This document shows, piece after piece, positions 32,624-50,320 of a DNA stretch of 64,000 nt (position 1 is the first letter of the stretch; each line of letters starts with the position of its first letter). A program made the translations under genes and the position numbers. Below the pieces are notes generated by a model that searched no databases, had not been told where the DNA came from, and was given only the letters and a program-made list of their open reading frames with translations. The stretch covers positions 2,046,001-2,110,000 of the forward strand of contig NZ_CP041247.1 in the NCBI RefSeq assembly GCF_006711645.1, given 5' to 3'. Source of the stretch: Klebsiella electrica. GTDB lineage: Bacteria > Pseudomonadota > Gammaproteobacteria > Enterobacterales > Enterobacteriaceae.

Positions 32624-33865
32624 ATGAAAAATAACTACAAATTACACGAATTCCTTGATGTTGACCGGTTGCAAACGTTACAGGATAATTTTAGTCAATC
32701 AATGATGATTGCGCTGGTGGTGGTCGATCAGGACGGTATTCCGGTTACCCAGGCGAGCGGATTCTCTGATTTTTGCGCCCGCTCGAGAATGAATGCCACC
32801 CTGGCCCGCCACTGCTATGACAGCGACAGCGCCGGAGGGCGGGCGGCGATGCTTGCCGGTGAACCGGTGGTCTACCGCTGTTACTGTGGTTTTGTCGAAT
32901 TTGCCGTGCCCATTATGATCAATAATCATTATCTCGGCGCTTTCATCTCCGGGCAGGTCAAAGTCGAAGCGGAGAAAGAGCAAACCATTCCCTATATCCT
33001 CAACAATAATCATCTGTGGCAAGACAATCCCTGGCTTATCAATCTGCATGAGAATACGCCGCGCATCCCCTACGATCGCTTTGAATCGACGGCCTACACG
33101 CTGCTGCACGTAGCCTCCTATTTGGTCGAGCAGGCCCATGCCAACAACATCCAGCGTGAGCTGCGGCAAAAAGAGCAGGAGCTAACCTGCGAACTGCGTA
33201 AACGCGTGGCGATCGAACGTTCATTGCATGAGGCCGAGTTCAAAGCGCTTTCTTATCAGATTAACCCTCACTTTTTGTTTAACGTGCTGAATACAATAGG
33301 TCGGCTGGCGTTTCTCGAAGATGCCAGCCGTACGGAAACGATGGTGCATGACTTTTCCGACATGATGCGCTATTTGCTGCGTAAGAATAACAATGGTCTG
33401 ATTACCCTTGGCCGCGAAATGAATTATGTCAATTGCTATATGTCAATTCAAAAGGTCAGGATGAATGAGCGCTTTGACTATATTTGCGATATTCCTGAAA
33501 AATATAATGAAACGGTTTGTCCTTTTTTAATTCTCCAGCCGCTGGTGGAGAACTTTTTTAATTATGTTGTCGAGCCGCGTGAAACCAAAAGTCACATTAT
33601 TCTGCGTGCTACCGATGATGGTAAAGATGTGATTATCGAGATAACCGATAACGGGGATGGTATTTCACCCGAGGATATTGAACATATTCTCTCCGGCAAC
33701 CAGAATCGACAGAAAGGCGGGATCGGCATTAATAATATCAACAACCGCCTGCAGCTGTTATTTGGTGAACACTATGGTTTGCAGATAGCCAGTCCCCATA
33801 AGCCGATGCTCGGCACCACGGTCAAACTCCGGTTTCCGCTGGTACCGGCTGAGTCTGGAGTGTGA
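32624..33865 (+). CDS. PocR-domain sensor histidine kinase
   Basis: 413-residue kinase with no membrane segment. Residues ~1-165 are a PocR ligand-binding domain carrying Cys51, Cys64, Cys86 and Cys88 (FCARSR, RHCYDSD, YRCYCGF). A short coiled region and a LytS-type His_kinase domain follow, with His216 in INPHFLFN, then an HATPase domain ([19 protein letters not shown]). The ATG at 32624 is preferred to the GTG at 32615. PocR controls propanediol use in Salmonella, so a diol-type inducer is likely. It overlaps the response-regulator ribosome site, forming one operon. Confidence 0.9.
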
Positions 33866-33867
33866 GA

Positions 33868-34920
33868 ATGTATAGCATTGTTATTGTCGAAGATGAGTAT
33901 ATTGAGTCGGAGTCGCTCAAGCGCATCGTCTCGCGCTGCGTGGAGAACGCTGTCATTCATGAAGCGGCGACGGGGAAAAAGGCCATTCAGCTTATCGATG
34001 AACTTAATCAAATCGATATGATGCTGGTGGATATCAACATTCCGTTACCCAATGGCAATCAGGTTATTGAGTATCTCAAGCAGAAAAATACGCAAACCAA
34101 AGTCATTGTCACCACGGCGAATGATGACTTTGACATTGTGCGTCATATGCTGAGCCTGAAAGTGGATGACTATCTGCTAAAACCGGTTAAGCAGAGTATT
34201 CTCAGCGATACGATTCGTAAAACCTTGCTGGTGGATGAGCAGGGGGCTGTCGCGACGCGGGAGCAGCGGCAGACGATAAACGACCTGATGAGCGATTGTG
34301 ATTATCCCGGCTGGCACACCTGGTTATTCGCTATTCTGGATGCGGCCTGCGCGCAACAGACGTCTGATAACGAAGGAGTGAAGAGGCTGACCAACGTGCT
34401 GGAATTGCTCCAGCAGTACCTTGCCGGGCTCGGCGATAAATATACCCCGTGTCGGTATCAGATTACCGATCTGATTCAGAGCATTCATCAGCACGGTCTG
34501 GCCGCCGGTCGCTACTGGCAGGTGATGGTGGGGTTGTTAAATCTCAGCCGCGCTATCTTTGAGCTGCTGTTTAAAAGTGCCAGCGGCGGCATGGATTTTG
34601 TCGCCAGAGCACGCTTCCATATTGAAAAAAACATGCTTAACAACATGACGCTGGATGATATCGCCGCGGAGTCCTTCGTCAGCCCGTGCTATCTGAGCCG
34701 GGCGTTTAAAAAGAGTACCGGTAGCGGGTTCTCCAGTTACATTACCAGCCGCAAAATCAACATCGCCAAATCTCTTCTGCAATTCAGCGATTTAAAAGTG
34801 AACACCATCGCGCTGGAGCTCTCCTGGCAGGATGCGAACTATTTTTGTCGGATCTTCAAGAAAGAGACCGGCATTGCGCCATCCGATTATCGCCGCATCG
34901 CTTCGCCCGAGGCGGGCTGA
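33868..34920 (+). CDS. AraC-type response regulator
   Basis: 350 residues: receiver domain with acidic pocket Glu8-Asp9, phosphoacceptor Asp55 (LVDINIPLPNG) and Lys in YLLKPVK, a linker of about 120 residues, and a C-terminal AraC double HTH (FVSPCYLSRAFKKSTGSGF, YFCRIFKKETGIAPSDYRR). The ATG at 33868 follows GGAG at good spacing. It is the cognate partner of the cytoplasmic PocR-domain kinase and is expected to activate the microcompartment operon. Confidence 0.9.
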   Translation: MYSIVIVEDEYIESESLKRIVSRCVENAVIHEAATGKKAIQLIDELNQIDMMLVDINIPLPNGNQVIEYLKQKNTQTKVIVTTANDDFDIVRHMLSLKVDDYLLKPVKQSILSDTIRKTLLVDEQGAVATREQRQTINDLMSDCDYPGWHTWLFAILDAACAQQTSDNEGVKRLTNVLELLQQYLAGLGDKYTPCRYQITDLIQSIHQHGLAAGRYWQVMVGLLNLSRAIFELLFKSASGGMDFVARARFHIEKNMLNNMTLDDIAAESFVSPCYLSRAFKKSTGSGFSSYITSRKINIAKSLLQFSDLKVNTIALELSWQDANYFCRIFKKETGIAPSDYRRIASPEAG

Positions 34921-34937
34921 TCGCCACCCGGTCTTTT

Positions 34938-34963
34938 TTGCGCTTGCCCCAGCGTAAGCGCAA
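34938..34963. terminator. Hairpin after the two-component genes
   Basis: TTGCGCTT (34938-34945) pairs with AAGCGCAA (34956-34963). The T-run lies on its 5' side on the plus strand, so a classic terminator would be read in the minus direction. On the plus strand it may simply separate the regulators from the SAM synthetase gene. Confidence 0.4.
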
Positions 34964-35053
34964 GAAAGTCCGCTATCCCGGCAAGATTGTTTACTCGCCG
35001 CCGCGCCGCGCGCCGCTAAGATAGAACACCCTTCTTTATACAATGGCCCTGCC

Positions 35054-36244
35054 ATGGATGAATACCTCTTTACCTCCGAATCCGTTGCCGAAGGGCACCC
35101 GGATAAGATGGCGGACCAGATTTCTGACGCCATTCTCGATGCCTGTTTACTCAGCGATCCGTGGGCCAAAGTGGCCTGCGAGTGCCTGGTCAAAACCGGG
35201 GCGGTGATTGTGGCCGGAGAGATATCGACCGATGCCAGTATCGACCTTGAGCAGATTGTGCGGGCGACGGTGAAGTCTGTCGGCTACGACCACTCGTCGA
35301 AAGGTTTTGACGCCGCAACTTGTGCGGTGATCAGCCTGCTGGGCAGGCAATCTGCTGATATTGCTAACGGGATCCGCGCCCGCGATCCGGCCTCACTGGG
35401 GGCCGGCGATCAGGGAATCACCTTCGGCTATGCCTGCGATGAAACGCCGCAGCTGATGCCTGCTCCCGTTCTCTACGCCCACCGGCTGATGGCGCGTCAG
35501 GCGCAGCTGCGTAAAACGCGCCAGCTGGATGGGTTATTACCGGATGCCAAGAGCCAGGTGACGCTGCATTATCGTGACGGACGGGTCGATCATGCTGACA
35601 CCATCGTGGTTTCCACGCAGCATCGCGCCGATCTTCCGCTGGCGACACTGCGTGAAGCGGTGCTGGAAGAGGTCATTAAACCGGTTATTCCGGCGCGCTG
35701 GCTGACTCCCGCCACGCGGCTACTGATTAATCCTGAGGGGCCATTTATCAACGGTGGACCCGCTGCGGATTGCGGCCTGACCGGGCGCAAAATTATTGTC
35801 GATACCTATGGCGGCGCAGCGCGCCACGGCGGCGGGGCGTTTTCCGGTAAAGATCCTTCGAAGGTCGATCGTTCCGCGGCCTATGCTGCGCGCTACGTGG
35901 CGAAAAATATCGTTGCGGCGGGGCTCGCCACGCGATGTGAAGTCCAGCTGGCCTGGGCCATTGGCCTTTCCCGACCGGTTTCGGTGGCCATCAATACATT
36001 TGGGACTTCCCGGCTGTCGGCGAAGCAGCTGACGCAGCTGGTCGACCATCATTTTGACCTCAGCGTGTATGGCATTATCCGCCAGCTTGATTTGCTGGCG
36101 CCGCGCTATCGCCAGACGGCCTGCTACGGCCATTTTGGTCGGGAGGTCTTCCCCTGGGAACGCACGGATAAGGCGCCGCGGTTGCGTGACGATGCCGCCG
36201 GCCAGCTGCGCGCGTCGGTGTGTGCCCCCTTGCATGAAAAATAA
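35054..36244 (+). CDS. S-adenosylmethionine synthetase paralogue in the microcompartment locus
   Basis: 396-residue homologue of MetK, making SAM from methionine and ATP. All hallmark motifs are intact: [36 protein letters not shown] and [19 protein letters not shown]. It differs from housekeeping enterobacterial MetK at many positions, so it is a diverged second copy rather than the core gene. It is followed 12 bases later by a BMC shell protein. The obvious role is local SAM supply for the glycyl-radical activase, which consumes SAM. Confidence 0.9.
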
Positions 36245-36256
36245 CAGGAGAGAGAT

Positions 36257-36835
36257 ATGTCCGGGCAGAGCTTAGGCTTAATTGAAACCGTTGGCTTAAC
36301 GGCGGCGGTAGAGGCCGCCGATGCGGCAATAAAATCGGCGAATGTCGAACTGGTCGGATACGAGCTGACGAAGGGCGGCGGGCTGGTGACCATCAAATTA
36401 ACCGGTGAGGTTGGCGCCATGAACGCCGCCGTGTCCGCCGGGGTTGCCGCCGCCAGCCGGGTCGGGCAGGTCTACGCCTGGAAAGTGATTGCGCGTACCG
36501 CTGCCGGGATCGACACTCTGATTGCCTCATCGCAAACGTGCGGCGTGCTTCCTGAACCAGCAGCGCCTGTCGCCGAATGCCTCCCGGCGGCAGAGAACGG
36601 CCCTGATGCGAGGATTGCGGTGGTCAATGTTGCCTCTTGCGCAGAGGTCGCCTCCTGCCTGGCCTTCGAGGAGAGCCCGGAGGTTGCGTCGACAGAATCA
36701 CCCGCGGCGGAGAGTGACCCGGCGCTGGTTCAGCCGGTGGGTAAAGAGGCTGAACCTCAGCCTGCACCCGCGGCGCAGACGAGCCCGGAGGAGAAAAAAA
36801 CGGCGCGAACCCGGGCGAAAAACCCCCGGCGCTAA
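36257..36835 (+). CDS. BMC shell protein with long C-terminal tail
   Basis: 192 residues: a single BMC domain (SLGLIETVGLTAAVEAADAA, GAMNAAVSAGVAAA) of about 90 residues, then a ~100-residue Ala/Glu/Pro-rich tail ending in a basic stretch (KKTARTRAKNPRR). The tail has scattered Cys but no Fe-S motif like that of PduK. Hexameric shell proteins with tails may line facets and bind cargo or cell components. It is co-transcribed with the SAM synthetase gene and ends at a strong terminator. Confidence 0.88.
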   Translation: MSGQSLGLIETVGLTAAVEAADAAIKSANVELVGYELTKGGGLVTIKLTGEVGAMNAAVSAGVAAASRVGQVYAWKVIARTAAGIDTLIASSQTCGVLPEPAAPVAECLPAAENGPDARIAVVNVASCAEVASCLAFEESPEVASTESPAAESDPALVQPVGKEAEPQPAPAAQTSPEEKKTARTRAKNPRR

Positions 36836-36853
36836 CCTCCATCGTTTCAGTTG

Positions 36854-37013: not shown

Positions 37014-37029
37014 CGGCGCGTCAGGTTAA

Positions 37030-37857
37030 TCATGACAGCGGATGATTCGCCGTCTCCCCGGCGGCTTTGGCGGCAGGGAGGTTGCGCCCGATACCGAAGC
37101 GATAGATAGCCGCGCCGAGGATCCCGCCGATGACCGGCGCAATCAAAGGCACGAGGAAGTAGGGGAGTTCTCTGCCGCCGGTCATGGCAACGGAGCCCCA
37201 GCCGTTCAGAAAGGTAAACAGTTTTGGGCCAAAATCACGAGCCGGGTTCATGGCAAATCCGGTTAGCGGCGCGGTCGCCGCACCGATGACCGCCACCAGC
37301 AGGCCAATCAGCAGCGGTGCCAGCGGCCCTTTCGGCACGCCGTTGCCATCGTCGGTCAGCGCCATGATCAAGCCAATCAGCATCGAGGTAATGACAATTT
37401 CCACCAGCGCCGCAAGCCAGACGCTGATGCTGGCCGCCGGATAGGTCGAAAAGATGCTGGCCAGATACAGGCTGTCCTGACTGCCGCGCACCATCTGGTG
37501 GGCCTGTTCATAATCAGCGAACAGATTGTGGTACAGCAGATAGGTCAGGGCGGCGCCGCAAAATGCGCCAGCCATCTGCGCCAGGATATAAGGCGCGACT
37601 TTTTTCGCCTCAAAGCGGGCGAACATCCATAACGCGATGGTGACCGCCGGGTTAAGATGAGCCCCGGAAATCCCCGCCGTCAGGTACACCGCCAGCGCAA
37701 TCCCCAGCCCCCACACAATGCAGATTTCCCAAAGACCGAAGCTGGCGCCAGCCAGTTTTGCCGCACACAGTACGCTGGTGCCGAAAAACAGAAACAATCC
37801 GGTCCCCAGAAATTCTGCAATACACTGTCCGGTTACTGATTCACGAGAGTCACTCAT
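37030..37857 (-). CDS. Glycerol/propanediol facilitator (aquaglyceroporin, GlpF/PduF type)
   Basis: 275-residue MIP channel with six membrane helices and two NPA motifs (GAHLNPAVT and FAMNPARDFGP). The Asp after the second motif marks the glycerol-conducting branch. It is the last gene of the long minus-strand operon, ending at a hairpin. It would let small polyols such as 1,2-propanediol or glycerol cross the inner membrane, which fits the diol-dehydratase-like residues of the radical enzyme. Confidence 0.93.
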   Translation of the reverse strand: MSDSRESVTGQCIAEFLGTGLFLFFGTSVLCAAKLAGASFGLWEICIVWGLGIALAVYLTAGISGAHLNPAVTIALWMFARFEAKKVAPYILAQMAGAFCGAALTYLLYHNLFADYEQAHQMVRGSQDSLYLASIFSTYPAASISVWLAALVEIVITSMLIGLIMALTDDGNGVPKGPLAPLLIGLLVAVIGAATAPLTGFAMNPARDFGPKLFTFLNGWGSVAMTGGRELPYFLVPLIAPVIGGILGAAIYRFGIGRNLPAAKAAGETANHPLS

Positions 37858-37952: not shown

Positions 37953-38870
37953 TTAGCCGCCGATATGGCAATGAAATCCCATCGATTCAACGAGTTTTTT
38001 CAGGTCGGCCATTTTGGCTTCGGAGTGCGAGCCGACATCCCCCATGGGATAAATGCGGCCCAGCAGGGTATATTTATTTTCGCCAAAGGTGTGATAAGGC
38101 AGGAGATGAATGGTGTCCACCCCGGACATCAGGCGGGCAAATTCAGCAATGCTGCGAATCTCCTCCGGGCTGTCGTTAACGCCGGGAATCACCGGGATGC
38201 GCACAATAACGTGAGTGATAAAGGAGATGCGAATCAGGTTTTCCAGAATCGTACGGTTATCAACACCCGTATTAAGTTGATGAATAGTCGGGTTCACGGC
38301 TTTTATATCCGTCAATGCCAGATCGACCCACGGAAAGACCTCCTCAATCACCGCTTTGCGGGTCATTCCCGTCGTTTCCATCGCCGTATGCCAGCCCTTG
38401 GCTTTACAGGCTTTCAGAAGCTCGCGGGCAAACTCCGGTTGCGCCAGCGGTTCACCGCCGGAGAGGGTAATCCCGCCGCCGGAGCGCCGAAATAAGTTTT
38501 CCTCTTTCTGCAGCTCACGCATCACCTCGCTGACGGTCATGCGTTTGCCTTTCATTTCCAGCGCCTGGGTCGGGCAAACCGCGGTGCATTGGCCGCACTG
38601 AATACAGCGTTCGCGGTCGATAAAGAACGGATTGCCAGGGGAGAGCGCCCGCTGTTGACAGACCTCCACGCATTTTCCGCAGCGAATACAGTCGCTTTTT
38701 TTATAGATTAACTCGGGCTGCGGGCGCTGAGATTCCGGGTTGCTGCACCACTTGCAGGCCAGCGGACAGCCTTTAAAAAAGGGGATCGTGCGGATGCCGG
38801 GGCCATCATGCAGGGAGTAGCGTTGAATATTGAATAACACGCCTTCGGTATCGTATTCGACTCTGTTCAT
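37953..38870 (-). CDS. Glycyl-radical enzyme activase (radical SAM)
   Basis: 305 residues from the ATG at 38870. The radical SAM cluster motif CPLACKWC has Cys35, Cys39 and Cys42. Two ferredoxin-type clusters follow (Cys61/64/67/71 and Cys89/92/95/99), as in activases of diol dehydratase, choline lyase and benzylsuccinate synthase. It abstracts hydrogen from the Gly of the partner enzyme using SAM. It is downstream of the enzyme gene, separated by a strong hairpin that should lower its transcript level. Confidence 0.95.
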   Translation of the reverse strand: MNRVEYDTEGVLFNIQRYSLHDGPGIRTIPFFKGCPLACKWCSNPESQRPQPELIYKKSDCIRCGKCVEVCQQRALSPGNPFFIDRERCIQCGQCTAVCPTQALEMKGKRMTVSEVMRELQKEENLFRRSGGGITLSGGEPLAQPEFARELLKACKAKGWHTAMETTGMTRKAVIEEVFPWVDLALTDIKAVNPTIHQLNTGVDNRTILENLIRISFITHVIVRIPVIPGVNDSPEEIRSIAEFARLMSGVDTIHLLPYHTFGENKYTLLGRIYPMGDVGSHSEAKMADLKKLVESMGFHCHIGG

Positions 38871-38936
38871 AACATCACTCGTCAAAAAAGCGACCACCGG
38901 CAACAGCAAGTCAGCCGCTAAAATCGGGTCTGATAA

Positions 38937-38978: not shown

Positions 38979-41522
38979 TCAGAATTGCTGTTCGGTACGG
39001 CTGATGATGTCATCCTGGACTTCTTTCGCCAGCACCACGAACTGCGCGCTATAGCCCGCAACGCGAACCACCAGGTCCTGGTGCTGCTGCGGATTTTTCT
39101 GTGCTTCCAGCAAGGTGTTGCGATCGATAACGTTAAACTGTACGTGCATCCCTTTCTTATCGAAGTAGTTGCGCACCAGACCGCCAAAGTTTCGCAGACC
39201 CTTTTCCCCCGCCAGCGAGGAAGGCAGGAATTTCTGGTTGTAGAGCGTGCCGTTCGAAGCGATAAAGTGATCCAGTTTGGCTACCGAGTTGGCGGCGGCG
39301 GTCGGGCCGAGGGTATCTTTCCCCTGGCGCGGCGATACGCCGTCGGCAAGCGGTTCTTTCGCCAGGCGACCGTCCGGCAGAGCGCTCACGTCTTTACCAA
39401 ACAGCACGTTCGCCGACACCGGATAGATACCGGCCTGGAAACGTCCGCCGCGTGGGTTGGTGTACTTCTCCACTTCCTGGCAGTAGATCAGCGCGCACTG
39501 GCGGGCGACAAGATCCACGTCGTCGATGTCGTTACCAAAACACGGCGTATTTTCCAGAATATGGCGAATCTCTTCATAACGCGGATTTGCCGCCGACGGG
39601 GCCGGACTGGTGCTGGCGAGCTGACGATAGACTTCGTTTTTAATCTCTGCCGGATTCAGCGAACCGTGCCGGTCGATAATGCGTTTGACCACTTCGTAAA
39701 TATCCTGCTCGCCGAGAGAGGATTTTGCCGCCGCGCTATGCGCGGTGCCGCCGACCGGGTAGCCGAAGTTGGCGTCCAGCGCGCCCTTCAGTTCCTGAAG
39801 CGTCAGGCGACGATCTTCAAACACCTGTTTTTGGATGGCGTAGACGGAGTCGCCGGTATCGGCAATGCCGAATGCCTGCGGGCCGGTAAAGTTGTAAATC
39901 GCGCCGCCTTCCTGCAGGGATTTACCGCGGCCAATGCAGTCATCCACCAGCGCGGAGAGGAACGGCAGCGGGCAGCGTTCGCCGTGGGCAATGTCGACAC
40001 TGTTGCACGCCTCGACCAACTGGTGCACAAAGTGCGCCATCTGTTTTTTGAAGGCAGCGAAGAAGTCGTCCATACCGGTGTACTGGGTCATTTCGCCGGT
40101 CATCGGCCCCAGTTGTTTGTCTGCCGAGCGGCCGTTATTAAGGGTGATCTCCAGGACCTTCGCGACGTTGAAGAACGCCGCGTCGTGCCAGCCTTCGGTG
40201 CGATGCGGCGCCTGCGGCTCCACGCAGCCGATGATGCAGTAGTCGCGGGCGTCATGCAGCGAGACGCCGCGGTTTTGCAGCGCCGGGATGATCACCTCAT
40301 CGTTGTACATGGCCGGTACGCCAAGCCCCAGACGGACCAGCTCGCAGGCGCGATAGAGAAACTCATCCGGCGTGCCTTGCCAGACGCGAATCGAGAAAGA
40401 GGGCTGCGGTAAACGCACGTGGGCCGTGGCTTCCATACACATGTAGGTTAGTGGGTTGGTGGCGTCGCGACCATCTTCCGTCTGACCGCCCACGCACAGG
40501 TTCTGGAACACGGCGTAGCCGGCGAAGGCCTGGGCAGAAATCTCATCGCGGGTTTTGTTGATATCGTTAAGCTTGATCCAGCAGCAGTCCACCAGCTCCT
40601 GGGCAAATTCGCTGCCGATGGCGGTATCCGCCGCCAGATATGGATACATGTACTGGTCGAAACGACCGGGGGAAATCGAGTGGCCGCTGGATTCAATCTG
40701 CAGCATGCTCTGAATAAACCAGAAGGACTGGCAGGCTTCCCAGAAGGTTGTCGCGCCGTATTCCGGCACGCGGGTACAGTTGCTGGCAATCTGTTCCAGC
40801 TCGCGCTGGCGGATAGGGTCGCGTTCTTCACGGGCAAGGCGCGAGGCTTCCTGCGCGTAGCGATGGGCGAAGTTGATTGCCGCCTGATAGCTCAGAATAA
40901 CGGCGTTGTAGAACTGCTCTTTTTTGATGTAATCAGAAGTGCGGCGGTCGAGATTCTCCAGCGCGCGGGTGACTTCATCGATGATCCCGCGAAAGCCGAT
41001 TTTCAGTACCTTGCCATAGTCGACGCTGACGTGTCCGACACCGCCAAAGAAGTAGTTGCCGACGGTGAAGACGCCGTTGCTCATGCTCTCTTTCGTCCCT
41101 TCGGACATATAGGCGGCGGCGAGCGAACTGGTGGTTTTACCCGGCCAGTATTTAAAAGCCTGGTGGAGCTCATCGGCGGTTTTTTTCTCAATAATAAACG
41201 GGTCGGCAACACGCTGTGCCATGGTGTCGAACTCATTTTCGACCCACTCATAAGAAAACTCAGGGCAAATTTCTGTTGAACGCGGATTAATCGTGACGGC
41301 GCCGACGATTAACTCGTCAGGGCGAATAGTGACCGGCAGTTCGTTAAATATTTTCTCAACGACTTTTGCCCGACGCATAATAGCGGGAAGCTGTTCATTC
41401 TCTTTATATGCCTCGGTTGCCAGCACCGCACGTTCAGATTCTACATATGGTTTAGCATGCAGGATCATATTTTTAAGTCTTACTACACGATCGGTCGGAT
41501 GAGTAAAGCCTTTCTCTAACAT
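38979..41522 (-). CDS. Glycyl radical enzyme, B12-independent diol dehydratase type
   Basis: 847-residue pyruvate-formate-lyase-like enzyme. The radical Gly is Gly823 in RVAGYSAQF. Thiyl Cys433 and Glu435 are in GCVEPQ. His164 (GVGHVSVDY), His281 and Ser282 (SSGHSIS) and Asp447 (GWHDAAF) fall at the same numbers as the diol-binding residues of Clostridium butyricum glycerol dehydratase. This argues for dehydration of 1,2-propanediol or glycerol rather than choline cleavage. There is no N-terminal extension, unlike the longer type II choline lyases, so packaging would rely on other contacts. It is upstream of its activase in the same operon. Confidence 0.9.
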   Translation of the reverse strand: MLEKGFTHPTDRVVRLKNMILHAKPYVESERAVLATEAYKENEQLPAIMRRAKVVEKIFNELPVTIRPDELIVGAVTINPRSTEICPEFSYEWVENEFDTMAQRVADPFIIEKKTADELHQAFKYWPGKTTSSLAAAYMSEGTKESMSNGVFTVGNYFFGGVGHVSVDYGKVLKIGFRGIIDEVTRALENLDRRTSDYIKKEQFYNAVILSYQAAINFAHRYAQEASRLAREERDPIRQRELEQIASNCTRVPEYGATTFWEACQSFWFIQSMLQIESSGHSISPGRFDQYMYPYLAADTAIGSEFAQELVDCCWIKLNDINKTRDEISAQAFAGYAVFQNLCVGGQTEDGRDATNPLTYMCMEATAHVRLPQPSFSIRVWQGTPDEFLYRACELVRLGLGVPAMYNDEVIIPALQNRGVSLHDARDYCIIGCVEPQAPHRTEGWHDAAFFNVAKVLEITLNNGRSADKQLGPMTGEMTQYTGMDDFFAAFKKQMAHFVHQLVEACNSVDIAHGERCPLPFLSALVDDCIGRGKSLQEGGAIYNFTGPQAFGIADTGDSVYAIQKQVFEDRRLTLQELKGALDANFGYPVGGTAHSAAAKSSLGEQDIYEVVKRIIDRHGSLNPAEIKNEVYRQLASTSPAPSAANPRYEEIRHILENTPCFGNDIDDVDLVARQCALIYCQEVEKYTNPRGGRFQAGIYPVSANVLFGKDVSALPDGRLAKEPLADGVSPRQGKDTLGPTAAANSVAKLDHFIASNGTLYNQKFLPSSLAGEKGLRNFGGLVRNYFDKKGMHVQFNVIDRNTLLEAQKNPQQHQDLVVRVAGYSAQFVVLAKEVQDDIISRTEQQF

Positions 41523-42176: not shown

Positions 42177-42186
42177 AAGCGAACTC

Positions 42187-42501
42187 TCAGAACGTACTGT
42201 CATCATCCTCAATAATACGCATGGCTTCATTCACTGCGGCGATCTCGCCGAACAGCGCCAGCGTCGTGATATGCTGCGGACAGCTGCCAAAGATCTCCGA
42301 TACCGCAACATGTGCGCTTTTACTTGCCAGATCGGCGTAAAAGTACAGATCGGGTACTGGCAACATCATCAACCCGATAGCGTCAATGCGGATGCTTTCC
42401 AGCCGGTTGCGAGCTTCCGAAGGCATCCGCCTTTTCAGCATGGCGAGCGTTTCCGCCGTCGGCGCGTTGATAATGCGTTTTTTCATGATCGGGTCAGCCA
42501 T
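42187..42501 (-). CDS. Divergent BMC-domain protein (PduU/EutS-like core)
   Basis: 104 residues. The core DAIGLMMLPVPDLYFYADLA followed by KSAHVAVSEIFGS and LFGEIAAVNEAMRII aligns by eye with the second half of PduU/EutS-type BMC domains (AIGIMTLTPSEASIIACDIA). It begins with RIINAPTAETLAML, a variant N-terminus that I have seen only with microcompartment genes. It is shorter than PduU and lacks its beta-barrel extension. It may be a minor shell or cargo-binding subunit. It is ten bases from the DJ-1 gene. Confidence 0.65.
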   Translation of the reverse strand: MADPIMKKRIINAPTAETLAMLKRRMPSEARNRLESIRIDAIGLMMLPVPDLYFYADLASKSAHVAVSEIFGSCPQHITTLALFGEIAAVNEAMRIIEDDDSTF

Positions 42502-42511: not shown

Positions 42512-44014
42512 TCAACGAATATTGAGCGCTTCAACCATTATGCAACGGCGGTGCCTGGCGTAGGAGCGTGCCGAGGTCAGGCCTTCACCGGTCGGACCGG
42601 CGATGGTAAATGTAGAGTGTCCTTCGCCGCCGACGCCTAACCCGGCATACGACGGGCCATTTTTCACAAAAATAGTGGTCTGGATCAGCCGCGCCATTTT
42701 GGTCAGTTTATCGACGTTGGTAGAGTGCATCATCGCCGTGTGACGATGACCATGTTCCACCTTCACCGCCAGATCGATCGCTTCATCGACGTTTTCCACT
42801 CTGACCACCGGCAAAATCGGCATCATCAGTTCGTGCACCACGAAGGGATGGTCACGCTCGGTTTCAATCAGAATAACTTTGATCTCCTCCGGCACGCTGA
42901 TACCGATTTGCTGCAGAATGTAGCGCGCATCTTTCCCCACCATTGCGGTACTCGGACCGTTCCCTTTTTCATTCAGCACCAGCGCCTGTAAGCGCTGAAT
43001 ATGTTGCTTGTCGCACAGCAGCCAGGCGCCGCTTTTTTTCATGCAGTGGATGAGATAGTCCGCCACCTCATTGACGACAATGGCCTCTTTTTCCGCCACG
43101 CAGGGGAGGTTGTTATCGAAGCTGCAGCCGTTGATGATATCGCGGGCGGCTTTCTCGATATTGGCGGTTTCATCAACAACGACGGGAGGGTTGCCCGCAC
43201 CGGCGCCAATCGCTTTCTTACCGGACGACATCACGGTTTTGACTATCGCCGGCCCGCCGGTAGCGACCAGCATATTGATACGCGCGTCGCCGATTAAGGC
43301 ATTGGTGTTGTCAATTGACGGGCTGGCGACCGTGACGACCAGACTGGCGGGGGCGCCAAGCCGGGCCAGCTGTTGATTGATGAGCGTGATGCAGTGTAAC
43401 GACACCTGACGCGAGCGCGGATGCGGGCTAAAGACCACGGCGTTTCCTGCGGCCAGCATACCGAGGGTATTGTTGATAATGGTCTCGGTCGGATTGGTGG
43501 TCGGCGTGATTGAACCAATGACACCATAGGCGGAGTATTCGGTCAGCGTCAGGCCGCCGTCGCCGCTGGTTGCCGCGGTGATGAGATCTTCAACCCCTGG
43601 GGTTTTTTGCGCGGCAACGCGGTTTTTCACCATCTTATCGGCATAGTTTCCCATCCCGGTCTCTTCCACCGCCATGGTCGAGAGCGTGTGCAAAATTTTT
43701 TCCTGCAGGAAAAACTGGCGAATGCCTTCAACAAAGCGGGCGCGATCCTGCATTGAGCAGTGGCGATACTGGATGTATGCCTGCTGCGCCGCCGCAATCG
43801 CGGCATCCATGGTGGCAAACACCCCGTCACCGGCGCTACCGTCGACAGCGGTTGCGGTCTGGCTTGCCAGTACGCTGGCGACAATCGCGTCGATGCTGCC
43901 GCGATCGAGCGGTGTGGTGGCTGCCGGCGCGTGCTGTTCGGGCGCTGGTGCCGTCGTTTTGGTATATTTACTCAGCACGCGGGAGACGGCCTGAGTAATA
44001 TCAAGATCGTTCAT
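42512..44014 (-). CDS. CoA-acylating aldehyde dehydrogenase (PduP/EutE type)
   Basis: 500 residues. Catalytic Cys305 is in DNNLPCVAEKE, with the upstream NPTETIINN and GAGAGNPPVVVD nucleotide-binding regions. An amphipathic N-terminal helix (residues ~2-18, DLDITQAVSRVLSKY) followed by a Pro/Ala linker is a classic encapsulation peptide. It converts the aldehyde product to acyl-CoA inside the compartment and regenerates NADH for the alcohol dehydrogenase. Confidence 0.94.
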   Translation of the reverse strand: MNDLDITQAVSRVLSKYTKTTAPAPEQHAPAATTPLDRGSIDAIVASVLASQTATAVDGSAGDGVFATMDAAIAAAQQAYIQYRHCSMQDRARFVEGIRQFFLQEKILHTLSTMAVEETGMGNYADKMVKNRVAAQKTPGVEDLITAATSGDGGLTLTEYSAYGVIGSITPTTNPTETIINNTLGMLAAGNAVVFSPHPRSRQVSLHCITLINQQLARLGAPASLVVTVASPSIDNTNALIGDARINMLVATGGPAIVKTVMSSGKKAIGAGAGNPPVVVDETANIEKAARDIINGCSFDNNLPCVAEKEAIVVNEVADYLIHCMKKSGAWLLCDKQHIQRLQALVLNEKGNGPSTAMVGKDARYILQQIGISVPEEIKVILIETERDHPFVVHELMMPILPVVRVENVDEAIDLAVKVEHGHRHTAMMHSTNVDKLTKMARLIQTTIFVKNGPSYAGLGVGGEGHSTFTIAGPTGEGLTSARSYARHRRCIMVEALNIR

Positions 44015-44055: not shown

Positions 44056-44841
44056 TCAAATGTACGGCGTCGTGGTCGATTTGATGGGCGCCGGATCGAG
44101 CGTCGCCAGCAGCTGTTTCCCGACGTCTCTGGCGGCGATGACCGCCTGGCGTACCGCGCCGGAATCACCGGCGAACGTGAAGATCACTTCGTTACTGAAG
44201 CTGGTGCCGTGCGCCGGACTGGCGTAACCCACCGGTTCGATGACGGCGGCTTTTGCCGCGGCGTCGGCGACCACTACGCCAATCGCCGCCGGGGAAGCGC
44301 AGGTCAGGCCGAAAGATTTACCCAGCGGGGCGCCGAAGGCTTTATTGAGCGCGCTGCTGGCGCGGGCGGTGTACTGGAACTCCAGATGACCGGCCGGGGA
44401 GCCATAAACATCGCCCATGGTGCGTTGAATTTCGCCCAGCGCGACTTCAACCGCGCGGCGCACATCGGAGACATCGGCGGCGCCGAAAATGATCAGGCAA
44501 CCATGCCCGCCGCCGCCCTCGGTATCGCGAGCCAGCTCGATGGAGAGAATTTCACTGTTGGTGGCTTTAATGGCCTCATCCGCGGCAAATATATGCGGTC
44601 CGGCCCCGGTCCGGGCGCCAAGAATACCGATGGAGCGATATTTCTTGTCGATATTCATGACTTCATGTAATTGATGATCAACATTGGCAATAACTAATCC
44701 AATGGTATGCCCAAGGGCCGTGCCGACAAATTCAGTTAAACCGCAACCGATAAAGCTGGCCAGCGTTTTATTATTTGCGCGATCATCAGTCTGTTTGTGC
44801 ATTACTTCAGATATAATCTGCTCAACAAGATTATCTCTCAT
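44056..44841 (-). CDS. PduB-like tandem-BMC shell protein
   Basis: 261 residues with two BMC domains, close to PduB throughout (LTEFVGTALGHTIGLVIANVD, IDKKYRSIGILGARTGAGPH, HLEFQYTARASSALNKAFGAP). An N-terminal helix (NLVEQIISEVMHKQ) before a linker mirrors the PduB segment that tethers cargo to the shell. Trimers of this class form large gated pores. It is 21 bases behind the PduA-like gene. Confidence 0.94.
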   Translation of the reverse strand: MRDNLVEQIISEVMHKQTDDRANNKTLASFIGCGLTEFVGTALGHTIGLVIANVDHQLHEVMNIDKKYRSIGILGARTGAGPHIFAADEAIKATNSEILSIELARDTEGGGGHGCLIIFGAADVSDVRRAVEVALGEIQRTMGDVYGSPAGHLEFQYTARASSALNKAFGAPLGKSFGLTCASPAAIGVVVADAAAKAAVIEPVGYASPAHGTSFSNEVIFTFAGDSGAVRQAVIAARDVGKQLLATLDPAPIKSTTTPYI

Positions 44842-44862
44842 GGTCGGTATCCTCTGGCTTTA

Positions 44863-45144
44863 TTAACTGACAGCTTTCGGCAGGATTTTTTCCACTTCAA
44901 TATGTGGGCGCGGAATCACATGTACGGAGACCAGTTCACCGACTTTACCTGCCGCCGCTGAGCCGGCGTCCGTTGCCGCTTTGACTGCGCCGACGTCGCC
45001 GCGAACCATCACGGTAACCAAACCGGAACCAATTTTTTCATAACCCACCAGCGTGACGTTAGCGGATTTCACCATGGTATCTGCGGCTTCGATTGCGGAA
45101 ACCAGACCTTTTGTTTCAACCATACCTAATGCTTCTTGTTGCAT
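44863..45144 (-). CDS. PduA/PduJ-like hexameric BMC shell protein
   Basis: 93 residues from the ATG at 45144. It is a canonical BMC-H protein ([55 protein letters not shown]). This subunit normally makes most of the shell facets and small-metabolite pores. The 203 bp upstream, before the kinase gene, are AT-rich without a reading frame and may hold an internal promoter for abundant shell expression. Confidence 0.95.
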
Positions 45145-45347
45145 AACGACCTCAATATTTCCAGGTGAGAGTAAAAGCAAGTTATGAATTAACCGACGAA
45201 GGTTGAGTTCATAGACTTAATAAATTCATGCACTACGATGTTATGGTGCCAGAGACAAAATGTTTTGCCCGGCAGAGAGACTTTCTTGTTTTCCCGTTTT
45301 CAGCTGGACAATAAAATCCTCCCCGAATGACTACCTTGAGGACGCGC

Positions 45348-46559
45348 TCAGGCGGCCCCTTCCAGCAAAGGGGCAAGCGCAGCCGCATCTTCGGCAATCA
45401 TCCGCTCTTCATTGGTGGCAATAACCGCCACAAGCGGTGAGCCGGGGAGTGAGATAATGCCCTCCCGGCCGGCGACCATTTGCGCATTGCGCGCGGTGTC
45501 GAGCTGCACGCCAAATATTGCCAGCCGTTCGGCGGTAAGCTCCCGGACCAGCGCCGAGTTCTCCCCGATGCCGCCGGTAAAGATCAGCGCATCAAAGCGA
45601 TGCAGCGAAGCGAGATGGGCGCCAAGGTGGCGGGCCAGTCGGTGTACCATGACATCAATCGCGAGAGTGGCCCGGGGATCGCCGTGGCTGCGCGCCTCTT
45701 GCAGGGTGCGGCAATCGCTGGACAGACCCGACAGACCGAACAATCCCGCCTCGCTATTGACCATCTTGTAAAGTGATTCAATCGTCTGTCCGGTACAGCG
45801 GGCAATATAGGCCGCGGCGCCAAAATCCAGATCGCCGCAGCGCGTGCCCATCACCAGCCCTTCAAGCGGCGTCATGCCCATCGAGGTGTCGACGCTCTGC
45901 CCGTTTTTCACCGCGCAGACCGACGAGCCATTGCCGAGATGGGCAATCAGTATGCCGTGGTTGGCGGGGTTGAGGCCCAGACGTGCGACGGCTTCAGCGG
46001 CGATAAAGCGATGGGAGGTGCCATGAAAGCCATAACGTCGGACCTGATGCTGGTGTAAATACTCCAGCGGGATGGCGTAGGTATAGGCTGCCGGCGGTAG
46101 CGTCTGATGAAAGGCGGTATCAAACACCGCCACCTGCGGCAGCTCGGGTAACAGCGCCATGGCGGCTTCAATGCCAATCAGGTTGGCGGGATTGTGCAGC
46201 GGGGCCAGCGCCGATAATTCCCGGATACGCTCGATAACCTGCGCCGTAAGCCGCACAGAATGTTTGAAGTCATTCCCGCCGTGCGCCACCCGATGACCGA
46301 TGGCGCACACCTGCGGCAGCAGCGCCTGCCCGGCGAGCCGGGCGAACAGCGCCTTTAGCGCACAGGTATGGCTGCCGCCGTTAAGCCATCCGCTGGTTTT
46401 ATTCCCTTGCGCATCGTTGAACGTGATGCAGGCGTCGCGAAGCCCCAGCTTTTCGGCCAGCCCGCAGAGCACCGGGGTCTCCTGGTGGCGCGGGATGACG
46501 GAAAACTTGAGGGAAGATGAACCACAGTTAATAACCAGAACCAGTGATGCTGACGACAT
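45348..46559 (-). CDS. Acetate/propionate kinase (AckA/PduW family)
   Basis: 403-residue acetokinase: N-terminal VLVINCGSSSLKFS, substrate site NPANLIGIEAA, phosphate region GHRVAHGG and the conserved GTSHRFIA. It turns propionyl- or acetyl-phosphate from PduL into acid plus ATP, the energy yield of the pathway. It probably acts outside the shell, since no targeting helix is visible. Confidence 0.94.
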   Translation of the reverse strand: MSSASLVLVINCGSSSLKFSVIPRHQETPVLCGLAEKLGLRDACITFNDAQGNKTSGWLNGGSHTCALKALFARLAGQALLPQVCAIGHRVAHGGNDFKHSVRLTAQVIERIRELSALAPLHNPANLIGIEAAMALLPELPQVAVFDTAFHQTLPPAAYTYAIPLEYLHQHQVRRYGFHGTSHRFIAAEAVARLGLNPANHGILIAHLGNGSSVCAVKNGQSVDTSMGMTPLEGLVMGTRCGDLDFGAAAYIARCTGQTIESLYKMVNSEAGLFGLSGLSSDCRTLQEARSHGDPRATLAIDVMVHRLARHLGAHLASLHRFDALIFTGGIGENSALVRELTAERLAIFGVQLDTARNAQMVAGREGIISLPGSPLVAVIATNEERMIAEDAAALAPLLEGAA

Positions 46560-46586
46560 GATGACCCCTGTCTGTATCCGTTTTCT

Positions 46587-47096
46587 TTAGAGAGACTCAT
46601 TGCATGGTGTGAGCGAAAAACGCTCGCGGCTGAAGCGCGCCAGAGTCTGCGTAGCGATCGCAATATCTTCCTCGACGCTCCCGCCGCTGATGCCGATAGC
46701 GCCGAGCAGCACGCCGGCGCACCAGCAGGGCAGACCGCCGCCAAAGCAGCAAAGACCTTGCGTATGCGACAAGCTATACAGGCTGGCGCCAGGCAATACG
46801 TCGGCCGCGAGCCTGTGGGTCGGCATCCTGAGCGCCACGGCGGTCCAGGCCTTTTGCGTGGCCAGCGTATGGCTGATAAGCAGGGCGTTATCCTGACTAA
46901 AGAAGTAGCGCTGCAGACCGTGGGCATCCACCAGGCTAAAAACAATGGGCACCTTCGCGCTGTTCGCCGCATCGATGGCATAGTGCGCCAGCGATGCCGC
47001 ATCCGTCAGCGTCAGCGAGGCCGGAAGCGGCGCTAACTGACGCGCAATGGCATCGTTGATACGGCGATCCAGTTCAGCATTCAACGTGGTGTGCAT
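46587..47096 (-). CDS. GlcG/HbpS-family protein (PduO C-terminal-like)
   Basis: 169 residues of the heme-binding HbpS/GlcG fold. Signature blocks include AHYAIDAANSAKVPIVFSLVD, LATQKAWTAVALRMPT and a C-terminal IGISGGSVEEDIAIA. This domain also forms the C-terminus of PduO. It recurs in microcompartment loci with a poorly understood role in redox or cofactor care. It sits between the kinase and the vertex-protein gene. Confidence 0.85.
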   Translation of the reverse strand: MHTTLNAELDRRINDAIARQLAPLPASLTLTDAASLAHYAIDAANSAKVPIVFSLVDAHGLQRYFFSQDNALLISHTLATQKAWTAVALRMPTHRLAADVLPGASLYSLSHTQGLCCFGGGLPCWCAGVLLGAIGISGGSVEEDIAIATQTLARFSRERFSLTPCNESL

Positions 47097-47113
47097 ACTT
47101 TCCTCCGTGGCGC

Positions 47114-47386
47114 TTACTGGCCGTTAAGATCGAGCGAGTCGACAATGCCGACTACGGCAGCATCAATCACCGAGTGTTCTTTGCTGGTGGTCATCCGCGC
47201 GGAGCTACCGGTGGTGACGATGACCGTTTCCCCGTTTCCGGCGCCGACAAAGTCGACGGCGACCTGTGCCGTGCCGGTGGGCTGATAGTGTTCATCCAGG
47301 CGGGCGACAATCAGCAGCTTTGCACCATTGAGCGAAGCATGCTTGGTCGTCGACACCAGGGCTCCGGTTACTTTTGCCAGATACAT
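47114..47386 (-). CDS. EutN/CcmL/PduN pentameric vertex protein
   Basis: 90 residues with the vertex-protein pattern MYLAKVTGALVSTTKHASL, GAKLLIVARLDE, VAVDFVGAGNGETVIVTTGSSAR. Pentamers cap the corners of the shell. The gene overlaps the end of the flavoprotein gene by 19 bp. One such gene in the locus is what a closed shell needs. Confidence 0.95.
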   Translation of the reverse strand: MYLAKVTGALVSTTKHASLNGAKLLIVARLDEHYQPTGTAQVAVDFVGAGNGETVIVTTGSSARMTTSKEHSVIDAAVVGIVDSLDLNGQ

Positions 47387-48123
47387 ATTTCCTCCTGGTG
47401 ACCCTGCACCATGACAATACCGCGGTCGCGAATTTCATCGCGAGCGGCGGGAGTGATGAGCGTCCGCGGTCCAACGGACAGTACCGCGCCTGTGGGGTGC
47501 TGGCGCACATCGCTGAGGGTGATCAGCGGCTTACCGACGCGCGTTGCCCGCCTCTGTGCCGGGTTCGCCGTGGGGTGGCCGATAATCGTGATGCCATACT
47601 CCCCGAGGGTGGCGACGTAACGGGTCAGCCGTGCCTGCAATGCCGGGGGGAGCTGGCTGGCGGCGGTGTCCCGGCATTCGGCATTGAGCGTGACGATGAT
47701 GGGGATGTTCAGACTCAGGGCGTGAAAAGCCCAACGGCACACCCGGTTATCGCGTATACCTAAGGCGATTTTGCTCAGGCTGTTAGTGGACAACGCGGGC
47801 AGATACAGGCCGCTGAACGCATCTTCTGCCTTGCAGGGATCCCGGTCGTCGCACAGCGCCTCAACATCGCGATGCGCCAGAGCCTCCAGGCAGGTGGAGT
47901 GCAACGACGCCTGGATGGCGCTATGGGAAAAGGTCATCACCAGCAGATAGCCGCAGGCGTTCAGCGCTGTCAGACAATCCAGCGTCGCCGGGAGCGTGGC
48001 GAGATCCTCCCCGCTTAATACCACGCGCACAACCTTGCCGTGGGCTTGCAGGCGCCGCCGACGTTGAGCCAGCAGGTCGGCAATGAGGCGGTCGAGCCGG
48101 TGTGAGAGTCGCTGTGCATCCAT
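47368..48123 (-). CDS. Flavoprotein-family microcompartment-associated protein
   Basis: 251 residues. I place it in the Flavoprotein (PPC-decarboxylase-like) group found in glycyl-radical microcompartment loci from its context and Rossmann-like pattern (VVRVVLSGEDLATLPATL, YLLVMTFSHSAIQ, LYLPALSTNSLSKIALGIRDN, IPIIVTLNAECRD). The PALSTNSLSKIA block is the best landmark. Its C-terminus (VQGHQEEICIWQK) is not diagnostic. A redox or cofactor-handling role is likely, but no reaction is assigned. Confidence 0.6.
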   Translation of the reverse strand: MDAQRLSHRLDRLIADLLAQRRRRLQAHGKVVRVVLSGEDLATLPATLDCLTALNACGYLLVMTFSHSAIQASLHSTCLEALAHRDVEALCDDRDPCKAEDAFSGLYLPALSTNSLSKIALGIRDNRVCRWAFHALSLNIPIIVTLNAECRDTAASQLPPALQARLTRYVATLGEYGITIIGHPTANPAQRRATRVGKPLITLSDVRQHPTGAVLSVGPRTLITPAARDEIRDRGIVMVQGHQEEICIWQK

Positions 48124-48134
48124 CGTTGTTCTCC

Positions 48135-48395
48135 TCAGCGGCTGCGCATGGCGATGCCAGGCGGCGTCACCAGCCTGGCGGTCAGGAAATCCACCACCAC
48201 GCCGTCTTTCACCGCCCGTGAAGGATGGCTGATGCCGGCGACGGGGTTATCGTTTTCATCCAGCACAACCATGGCGATATTGGCGGTGCCCGGATCGACA
48301 CCCACTTTTAGCGCGCCAGACCAGGCGCGGAATCCGTCCTGGCTGACCAGCTCCGCCAATGCATTCAGTCGCCGGGTTGCTGTGCTGTCAGTCAT
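48135..48395 (-). CDS. Truncated EutJ-like protein (actin/Hsp70-like N-terminal fragment)
   Basis: 86 residues matching only the start of EutJ: a helical leader, then the phosphate-1 motif KVGVDPGTANIAMVVLDEN and VAGISHPSRAVKDGVVVDF. Full EutJ is about 280 residues, so about 200 C-terminal residues including the rest of the ATPase fold are missing. The gene ends 11 bases before the flavoprotein gene and overlaps the PduL end by 8 bp, so the operon was closed up cleanly after the loss. It could be a functional mini-protein or a remnant. Confidence 0.6.
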   Translation of the reverse strand: MTDSTATRRLNALAELVSQDGFRAWSGALKVGVDPGTANIAMVVLDENDNPVAGISHPSRAVKDGVVVDFLTARLVTPPGIAMRSR

Positions 48396-49080
48396 GGCGG
48401 CGTTCCACAAACGCGCGCTGGACGCAATCGCCGTTACGCAAGCCAAAACCGTTGGCCTCTTCAACATCAACATGCATTTCCAGCACCGCGTCCGCACTTA
48501 CCCGAACCACCACGTGGCTGAGAATGCCGCCGCGATAGCCGTCGATACGCACGTCAATTTCCATGCCGTCGCGCAGGGCGTGGCGTTCGGCATCGGCGGG
48601 CGAAATATGAATATGGCGCCAGGCGACAATCGCACCATCCGTTTTGCTGACCCGCCCGCGCGGGCCGATAATCTCGATCCCCGGCGAGTCCTGTAGGTCG
48701 CCGGACATTCTCAATGGCGCCTTGACACCGAGGACAAAGCTGTCGGCGACGGAGATTTCAACCTGGGTGGCGCTGCGCAGCGGGCCAAGGACACGTACTC
48801 TGGTGAGTTCCCCTTTTGGTCCGCGCAGAGTCACCGTCTCTTCGGCGGCATACTGGCCCGGCTGTTTTACCGCTTTCATGCGGGTGAGGGCGGCGCCATA
48901 GCCAAACAGGATGTCCATATCTTCCCGGCTCAGATGAACGTGGCGGTTAGAGATACCAACGGGGATGCGCAAGGTCTGCGCGGCGCAGGGGGAACCGGTC
49001 ACCGCCCCGGCGCCACGGGACCTGAGCTCCTGAAGAATTTCCCGGGCGATTAATTCGGCTTGCTGCTGGGTGTCATTCAT
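48388..49080 (-). CDS. pduL: PduL-type phosphate propanoyltransferase
   Basis: 230 residues from the ATG at 49080. The two PduL-domain zinc motifs are present, RHVHLS (residues 46-51) and WRHIHIS later, with SNRHVHLSREDMDILFG typical of the family. It moves the acyl group from CoA to phosphate inside the shell and recycles CoA. The N-terminal helix (QQQAELIAREILQELRSR) before a linker looks like an encapsulation peptide. The longer in-frame start at 49119 is not needed. Confidence 0.94.
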   Translation of the reverse strand: MNDTQQQAELIAREILQELRSRGAGAVTGSPCAAQTLRIPVGISNRHVHLSREDMDILFGYGAALTRMKAVKQPGQYAAEETVTLRGPKGELTRVRVLGPLRSATQVEISVADSFVLGVKAPLRMSGDLQDSPGIEIIGPRGRVSKTDGAIVAWRHIHISPADAERHALRDGMEIDVRIDGYRGGILSHVVVRVSADAVLEMHVDVEEANGFGLRNGDCVQRAFVERRHD

Positions 49081-49204
49081 AGCGTCAACAACCTGAAAGT
49101 GATGAAAAGAGCGATACAAGCATATTCAGTCCCGCGTTGGCCTTTTTGCGGTTGCGCAGGACTTTTTTGACGCTCCGCCGGTCACAGGACAATCTTGTCC
49201 AGAT

Positions 49205-50320
49205 TTAGCCGGCGATAGCGGTCAGCAAGTGGTCTACATCAGCGGCGCGGGGCTGGCAGGGATTGGTTTGCGTGCAGCCATCCTCTAAAGTTGCCGCGAT
49301 CAGCGCCTGGCGCAGGGATTCCACCGCCGCCCGCTCTTTTCCCAGCGCCTGCAGCGTTGGTGGAATACCAAAATGATGATTGATATCGCGAATGCTGCCG
49401 ATCAGCGCGCGCAGGGTTTGTTCCGGCGTTGCCGCCCGGATGCCCATAATGGCGGCGCATTTCAGGTATCTCATCCGTGCGTGCGGGGCGTGGCGGGCAT
49501 TGTGTTCAATAACTAAGGGCAGCAGCATGGCGTTAATCTTGCCGTGCGGGATATGCAACATTCCGCCGATAGCGTGCGCCATGCCGTGCACTAATCCCAA
49601 TCCTGCCGAATTAAACGCCATACCGGCCATGCAAGAGGCGTTGTGCATATGGCCCCGGGCCGCAAGATTATTCTCATCGCTAAAAACGTCGGGCAGGTGT
49701 TGCCAGACCAGCGCAATGGCTTTCTCGGCGAGCGCGTCGCTAAAATCATTGGCCCCCGTCGACACCAGCGCCTCAATGGCATGGGTCAGGACATCCATGC
49801 CTGTATCCACGGCGACCTGGCGCGGTACGGAGAGAACCAGGTTGGGATCGAGGATGGCGCAGTCCGGGATCAGTTCCTCGGCAATCAGCGGATATTTTCG
49901 GCCGTTTTGCGGATCGGAGATGATGGCGTAGGCGGTGACCTCTGAACCGGAACCGCTGGTGGTAGGAATGGCGATAAGCTCTATGGCGTGGTCGGGGAGG
50001 AACTCTTCCAGCGTAACCTTGATCCCTTTAGCGGCATCCAGAGAAGAGCCGCCGCCCAGCGCGATAATGACGTCCGGTTTAAAACGTTTAAATTGTGCGG
50101 CCCCGGTATGCAGGATCTCAACGCTCGGGTCGGGTTTCACCTCGCTGAAAATAGAGACGCAGGCTTGCGGCATTTCATTAATCAGGTCGCGTGTTTTACC
50201 GGAGGTCACCATAAAGCCGTCGGTCACAATCGCCACCTTTTTATGGTTCAGCCGACGTAAGGTTTGAATCGCGTTTTCACCAAAATAGACGTCAGGAAGA
50301 GAAAAGAAATAGCTCGCCAT
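49205..50320 (-). CDS. Iron-containing alcohol dehydrogenase (PduQ-like)
   Basis: 371-residue group III alcohol dehydrogenase with NAD-binding GGGSSLDAAKG and TTSGSGSEVT. The metal ligands fall in the DTGMDVLTHAIEAL and GLVHGMAHAIGGMLHIPHG blocks. It reduces part of the aldehyde to alcohol (1-propanol or 1,3-propanediol), regenerating NAD for the aldehyde dehydrogenase. It is the first gene of the minus-strand operon, 124 bp ahead of PduL. Confidence 0.92.
   Translation of the reverse strand: MASYFFSLPDVYFGENAIQTLRRLNHKKVAIVTDGFMVTSGKTRDLINEMPQACVSIFSEVKPDPSVEILHTGAAQFKRFKPDVIIALGGGSSLDAAKGIKVTLEEFLPDHAIELIAIPTTSGSGSEVTAYAIISDPQNGRKYPLIAEELIPDCAILDPNLVLSVPRQVAVDTGMDVLTHAIEALVSTGANDFSDALAEKAIALVWQHLPDVFSDENNLAARGHMHNASCMAGMAFNSAGLGLVHGMAHAIGGMLHIPHGKINAMLLPLVIEHNARHAPHARMRYLKCAAIMGIRAATPEQTLRALIGSIRDINHHFGIPPTLQALGKERAAVESLRQALIAATLEDGCTQTNPCQPRAADVDHLLTAIAG

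Follow-up and report, generated by a model that had tools for sequence, protein, structure and literature searches.

We describe a gene cluster of Klebsiella electrica that encodes a glycyl-radical-enzyme microcompartment (GRM). It lies in a 64,000-nucleotide stretch of contig NZ_CP041247.1 (positions 2,046,001 to 2,110,000, assembly GCF_006711645.1), which is called the window below and whose own numbering is used throughout. The cluster occupies positions 32615-50320 and consists of two convergent gene sets with a total of 18 genes and one remnant. The features are listed below with the matches that support them, each set in its direction of transcription (BMC, bacterial microcompartment; SAM, S-adenosylmethionine; percentages are protein identities).

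32615..33865, + strand: PocR-domain histidine kinase, GrpP-like (PF10114 E 1e-42, PF06580, PF02518; 81% to E. coli GrpP)
33862..34920, + strand: response regulator with AraC-type output (PF00072 with PF12833/PF00165; 62% to the E. coli counterpart)
35054..36244, + strand: dedicated SAM synthetase, a GrpR-like methionine adenosyltransferase (TIGR01034, 568 bits; motifs GAGDQG and GGGAFSGKD)
36257..36835, + strand: BMC-H shell protein with a variable C-terminal tail and basic end (PF00936 at residues 5-80)
49205..50320, - strand: iron-type alcohol (1-propanol) dehydrogenase (AdhE/lactaldehyde-reductase-type matches, all under cut-off; PduQ position in E. coli, 71%)
48388..49119, - strand: phosphate propanoyltransferase PduL (PF06130 E 3e-72; 5CUO E 6e-71)
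about 48135..48398, - strand: eutJ-like remnant, 87 residues (aligned to the full-length genes of two close relatives, L114 and L116; E. coli EutJ is full length)
47368..48123, - strand: flavoprotein-like protein (weak PF02441 match, E 3e-4, below cut-off; position of the E. coli 'flavoprotein', 46%)
47114..47386, - strand: pentameric vertex protein, GrpE-like (CcmL/EutN E 2e-25, below the equivalog cut-off; GrpE position in E. coli, 88%)
46587..47096, - strand: PduO-C/HbpS-like protein (PF03928 E 4e-29)
45348..46559, - strand: propionate kinase, GrpG-like (PRK12379, 617 bits)
44863..45180, - strand: shell hexamer, GrpH-like BMC-H (EutM-type, PRK15474 E 2e-37, just below cut-off; 97% to the E. 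coli GrpH region)
44056..44841, - strand: PduB-type tandem shell protein (TIGR04501, 385 bits)
42512..44014, - strand: CoA-acylating propionaldehyde dehydrogenase with an N-terminal extension (PRK15398, 714 bits; 5jfl/5jfm E 3e-203)
42187..42501, - strand: GrpU-type BMC-H shell protein with the pore motif GSCPQH (4OLP E 1e-55; GrpK position in E. coli)
41601..42230, - strand: PfpI/DJ-1 family protein, GrpL-like (PF01965 E 6e-38; GrpL position in E. coli)
38979..41522, - strand: glycyl radical diol dehydratase, GrpM-like, 847 residues (PF02901 and PF01228; solved chain 9rco; tree)
37953..38909, - strand: glycyl-radical activating enzyme, GrpN-like (TIGR02494, 391 bits; one CX3CX2C and two CX2CX2CX3C motifs)
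37030..37857, - strand: GlpF/PduF-type diol channel of the MIP family (PF00230; closest solved relative GlpF 1FX8, E 2e-115)

The profile scores (e.g. E 6e-244 for the PFL-like match) and the synteny kept in other genera rule out a chance assembly. All the parts named in an initial annotation of the sequence are present as open genes with profile matches, including the kinase, whose start was then placed at 32624, an internal in-frame ATG located three codons after the one used here (32615). Its description of the set as complete needs qualifying only for eutJ, which is truncated here and full length in two close relatives; it had also overlooked the SAM synthetase, PfpI, GrpU, the PduO-C-like and flavoprotein-like proteins and the eutJ remnant. 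For PduL a start at 49080, judged from the starts of its relatives, appears more likely and would yield an N-terminal helix-like extension. The two motifs noted in the SAM synthetase are ones that we take to be meaningful for that family; a second copy, 64% identical, is encoded elsewhere in the genome, and the locus copy is thus likely to be a dedicated paralog. The fold model of the flavoprotein-like protein is poor (predicted local distance difference test, pLDDT, 59; predicted template modelling score, pTM, 0.50; 8-sequence alignment), and inspection by eye of the tails of the tailed BMC-H protein and the relatives inspected revealed no common cysteine pattern. A terminator-like hairpin (a consensus match only) lies at 36853-36872, between the ends of the convergent sets. 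Rfam searches at the gathering score returned zero matches for 30000-54000, and hence no curated cobalamin riboswitch in that stretch.

Membership in the Grp (GRM3b) family

In line with the definition of GRMs in PMC6325248, the locus combines a glycyl radical enzyme (pfam02901 and pfam01228) and its cognate activase with adjoining BMC shell genes. The accessory set given for GRM3 in PMC4207490 comprises acetate kinase, peptidase, flavoprotein, EutJ, SAM synthetase, DUF336 and a two-component pair. The last six of these were all located here, EutJ as a remnant and the flavoprotein by a match below cut-off. The radical enzyme is likewise of the GRM3 kind, being of the 1,2-propanediol-dehydratase type with an internal insert of ~60 residues and no N-terminal extension; PMC6325248 describes the enzymes of GRM3, GRM4 and GRM5 as 1,2-propanediol dehydratases. 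The same source, in its survey of loci, records GrpU in 53 of 55 GRM3b loci and PduS/PduT in a minority. It is the presence of GrpU that places the locus in GRM3b; no PduS or PduT was identified among its genes in the profile scans.

We conclude, with a probability of roughly 0.94, that the locus encodes a microcompartment of the Grp type (GRM3, subtype GRM3b) for fermenting 1,2-propanediol independently of B12. The present analysis demonstrates which genes are there and how they are ordered, as well as the active-site residues and the family to which the locus belongs. The system is already known, and the locus is a Raoultella-type ortholog of it, real, largely intact and ordinary, so that no discovery is claimed for the compartment itself. 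A literature search naming Raoultella returned no paper on the Raoultella locus, its match dealing with trimethylamine producers. The radical enzyme is expected to be oxygen-sensitive and to work without vitamin B12. The initial annotation had likewise proposed B12-independent use of 1,2-propanediol, distinct from the pdu and choline pathways, and on the sequence evidence this is supported as the best reading.

Active site and phylogeny of the radical enzyme

Residues 1-586 of the radical enzyme align one-to-one, from residue 1, with the B12-independent glycerol dehydratase of Clostridium butyricum (1R8W). H164, H281, S282, C433, E435 and D447, which we take to be the catalytic and diol-binding positions of that dehydratase, are all present at the same numbers, exactly as first reported, and the radical-loop glycine is G823. 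In an alignment of 79 enzymes (the window and 78 of 80 related loci, with one broken, L026, and one partial, L056, being excluded from residue and insert counts) five of the six residues are invariant and S282 occurs in 75. The four enzymes with alanine instead are all short-insert forms from Clostridium with no shell genes detected nearby; L030, L045 and L049, which also have short inserts, retain the serine.

The choline trimethylamine-lyase CutC encoded in the same genome, 36% identical to the radical enzyme, shows D, T, G, C, E and S at these sites. The CutC equivalog model gives it 1665 bits and the radical enzyme 559, against a cut-off of 1050. A choline-lyase microcompartment (GRM1/GRM2), which would have the general glycyl-radical microcompartment layout in common with the locus, is thereby left with next to no credibility, the more so as the enzyme stands far from the organism's own CutC, itself found in a separate locus (C1:4596-4606 kb). 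We accordingly rejected GRM1/GRM2 identity, the enzyme not being CutC-type and the resident CutC serving as positive control.

A maximum-likelihood tree of 51 rows (the window enzyme, four other enzymes of its genome and 46 of the 80 related loci) pairs the window enzyme with that of Raoultella ornithinolytica (98% identity) within an enterobacterial clade of GRM3-type propanediol dehydratases. The resident CutC falls outside this clade on a very long branch; all four of the other K. electrica rows have very long branches, and their mutual placement is unsure. Clustering with choline trimethylamine-lyases, which had been named as the outcome that would refute the initial annotation, is thus not seen with the resident CutC.

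The six residues favor a diol and oppose choline; they cannot separate propanediol from glycerol since the C. butyricum glycerol dehydratase shares all of them. Hence, the diol-dehydratase-type site of the initial annotation stands, and its preference for propanediol does not follow from these positions. An enzyme acting primarily on glycerol, with the compartment handling 3-hydroxypropionaldehyde, would fit this shared site, the 58% identity to a Clostridium relative with no shell genes in 22 kb (L045) and the GlpF-type channel of the locus. Against this, the enzyme groups with the long-insert enzymes of GRM3 rather than in the branch holding six of the seven short-insert ones, and the locus encodes propionate kinase and PduL. 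Moreover, the GRM3 enzymes of Rhodopseudomonas palustris are reported in PMC5311937 to convert 1,2-propanediol via propionaldehyde to propionyl-CoA, and to yield no 3-hydroxypropionyl-CoA when glycerol was substituted. We consider this glycerol reading improbable. The assignment of propanediol as the likely substrate rests on the published GRM3/Grp work together with the propionaldehyde-type downstream enzymes.

The internal insert and encapsulation

The insert comprises 62 residues between positions 586 and 649. The top matches in the PDB, chains 9rco-9rcr ('Glycyl radical protein'), cover nearly the whole enzyme; the 9rco alignment passes directly from query residue 591 to 645, indicating that the solved chain is without the insert. 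In R. palustris the internal insert region has been proposed as an encapsulation peptide (PMC5311937).

We surveyed the 78 related loci, counting an insert as long at 40 or more residues and using a PduA or vertex gene in the sequenced stretch as the shell marker. The marker is present in 55 of 71 long-insert loci versus none of the seven with shorter inserts (for which the stretch is about 22 kb). Ten of the 16 long-insert loci without it are represented by stretches of <16 kb and the other six by about 22 kb. Erwinia mallotivora (L030, 9932-12427) is a member of the enterobacterial clade whose radical enzyme is 77% identical and whose activase is kept; its insert has 23 residues rather than 62, and of the shell there is only a GrpU-like piece of 39 residues. 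Judging from these sequences, loss of the shell seems to have gone along with loss of most of the insert in this species, a natural hint of an encapsulation role for the insert.

Relationship to named systems

The closest named counterpart is the grp operon of Escherichia coli strain L73, which largely carries grp names in RefSeq. Order and strands are the same for 18 of the 19 window features, and these show 46-97% protein identity (radical enzyme 88%, aldehyde dehydrogenase 77%, PduB 88%, GrpU 82%). The exception is the channel: the window has a GlpF-type protein where E. coli has GrpO. In addition, the window eutJ is truncated. Of 5426 complete E. coli genomes, 535 carry the enzyme gene (at least 80% of the length, 80-90% identity), and all 10 of the matches listed are annotated as grpM. 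A 2026 review (PMC13210347) attributes the finding of 1,2-propanediol fermentation by Grp in E. coli CFT073 to Lundin et al. 2020, who are reported to have characterized the system genetically.

With the GRM3 system of R. palustris BisB18 the window shares the internal insert, a likeness drawn via solved relatives and the published description; the window also has GrpU, fitting GRM3b. The closest solved relatives of its aldehyde dehydrogenase (5jfl/5jfm) and PduL (5cuo) presumably originate from R. palustris. The C. butyricum glycerol dehydratase differs in having no insert, and is described in PMC5311937 as being without microcompartment association.

GRM4, as found in Shewanella and apparently, by gene content, on an Enterobacter kobei plasmid, shares the radical diol dehydratase, activase, MIP channel, PduA, PduB, PduL and a PocR-domain protein. 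The E. kobei locus differs in its gene order, in the presence of PduM and in the absence of genes named as metK or GrpU in its annotation; its radical enzyme is about 58% identical. This locus (L124, plasmid pIB2020_L) is flanked on both sides by ISSpu2-family transposase genes, and similar enzymes occur on plasmids of Citrobacter, Kosakonia and Salmonella. PMC4207490 records GRM4 in two Shewanella species only.

Weighing the assignment and a proposed mechanism

Four points weigh against the Grp assignment or qualify it. First, the six diol residues do not in themselves exclude glycerol as a substrate. Second, PMC13210347 gives the Grp system of CFT073 as 21 genes with a single direction of transcription, whereas in both the window and E. 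coli L73, the strain compared here, four of the genes run the other way. Third, six loci (L039, L058, L060, L061, L085 and L090) combine a long insert with no shell gene found by five shell queries in about 22 kb, and thus the insert by itself is no proof of encapsulation. Their shell genes might lie elsewhere or have been missed, or the insert might be used outside compartments. Fourth, the truncation of eutJ could impair the locus a little, even if several relatives lacking this gene look otherwise intact.

The last point in its strongest form would make the locus a decaying, non-functional copy, as the 558-bp deletion in eutJ might suggest. This, too, we regard as improbable: each of the remaining 18 has an open reading frame, with 80-100% identity to its counterpart in R. 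ornithinolytica (L016), and eutJ is absent from several other loci as well.

For a functional Grp system, the regulation, substrate, encapsulation and electron flow of described relatives would combine as follows. The PocR-domain two-component pair would sense the diol and switch on the two convergent transcription units, with the GlpF-type channel providing diol entry. The activase would set the glycyl radical on the dehydratase, its supply of SAM being helped by the dedicated synthetase. Kept in the shell by its internal insert, the dehydratase would convert 1,2-propanediol to propionaldehyde, which would be oxidized within the shell to propionyl-CoA and passed on by PduL and the kinase to propionate with a gain of ATP, or alternatively reduced to 1-propanol, recycling NADH. 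GrpU is predicted to contribute an iron-sulphur site in the shell.

A variable periphery

Relative to the full-length genes of L114 and L116, the window eutJ shows an in-frame deletion of 558 bp that leaves 87 of 272 residues. A 7-base repeat at the ends of the deletion was considered and rejected, its letters not matching fully. We compared the periphery across 20 sequences, namely the window and 19 chosen loci, some of which are close kin (e.g. two from Rahnella) and hence not independent, and some of which end within the locus. Full-length eutJ occurs in 11 of them and a short piece in two (including the window). In the other seven the E. coli query detects none, although one of these (L118) shows a piece when queried with the Raoultella sequence. 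The channel slot is occupied by a GlpF-type protein in 12/20 and by GrpO in 7/20; none has both and one has neither. GrpO is unrelated to the GlpF-type channel and has no Pfam match. PfpI is missing in six of the sequences and GrpU in none.

We hold it an even prospect that the Grp periphery is modular in this way: the actin/Hsp70-like EutJ would be dispensable (truncated or undetected in 9/20), the unrelated GlpF-type channel and GrpO would interchange in one slot for import, and Grp and the B12-dependent diol/glycerol dehydratases may tend to avoid each other across Enterobacteriaceae. The loss of eutJ, which is natural, and the channel/permease swap offer simple ways into the question of which accessory parts are needed by a compartment of this kind.

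Genomic context and B12-dependent dehydratases

The K. electrica genome (5.79 Mb, 6 contigs) encodes a second glycyl-radical microcompartment locus at C1:4596-4606 kb, with four BMC-domain matches, the CutC discussed above (1130 residues) and a phosphotransacylase (PTAC) gene; we infer that it is a choline-type GRM2. The large subunit of B12-dependent dehydratases, PF02286, a family that also covers the glycerol dehydratases, has no match in this genome, the same search being positive in 12 of 20 genomes of the genus and 46 of 392 of the family, and negative in 14 control genomes too. On this ground a B12-dependent pdu identity was rejected. No 1,2-propanediol dehydratase other than that of Grp was thus detected in the genome, which also has a choline-lyase glycyl-radical locus. 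What is new here is minor: the eutJ deletion, the GlpF-type channel in the GrpO slot and this lack of a detected B12-dependent diol dehydratase.

Counting as a Grp carrier any genome with a radical enzyme of at least 80% identity, the 392 family genomes include 25 carriers (among them G104, G333 and G389, whose enzyme is broken or partial) and 46 with PF02286, with no overlap (p 0.04, relatedness ignored). Adding 14 genus genomes (n=406) gives 29 and 57, with one overlap, G122 (p 0.06, relatedness again ignored). Two genomes with PF02286 and a 56-58% identical radical enzyme (G320, G379) were not counted as Grp. These counts give only a hint of mutual avoidance.

Adjoining the locus are a RidA-like gene (50634-51035, + strand) and a LysR gene (50982-51959, - strand). 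At E 1e-100 the latter matches in 4 of the 20 genus genomes, all Grp carriers and three with one TGA within the match; the Grp carriers G122 and G123 have no match. Just downstream of it, at 53263-55857 on the + strand, three consecutive genes resemble, by eye, an IS66-type transposase set, and at 56059-58961 on the - strand three more similarly resemble a lactate-utilization (LutABC-type) iron-sulphur oxidase cluster.

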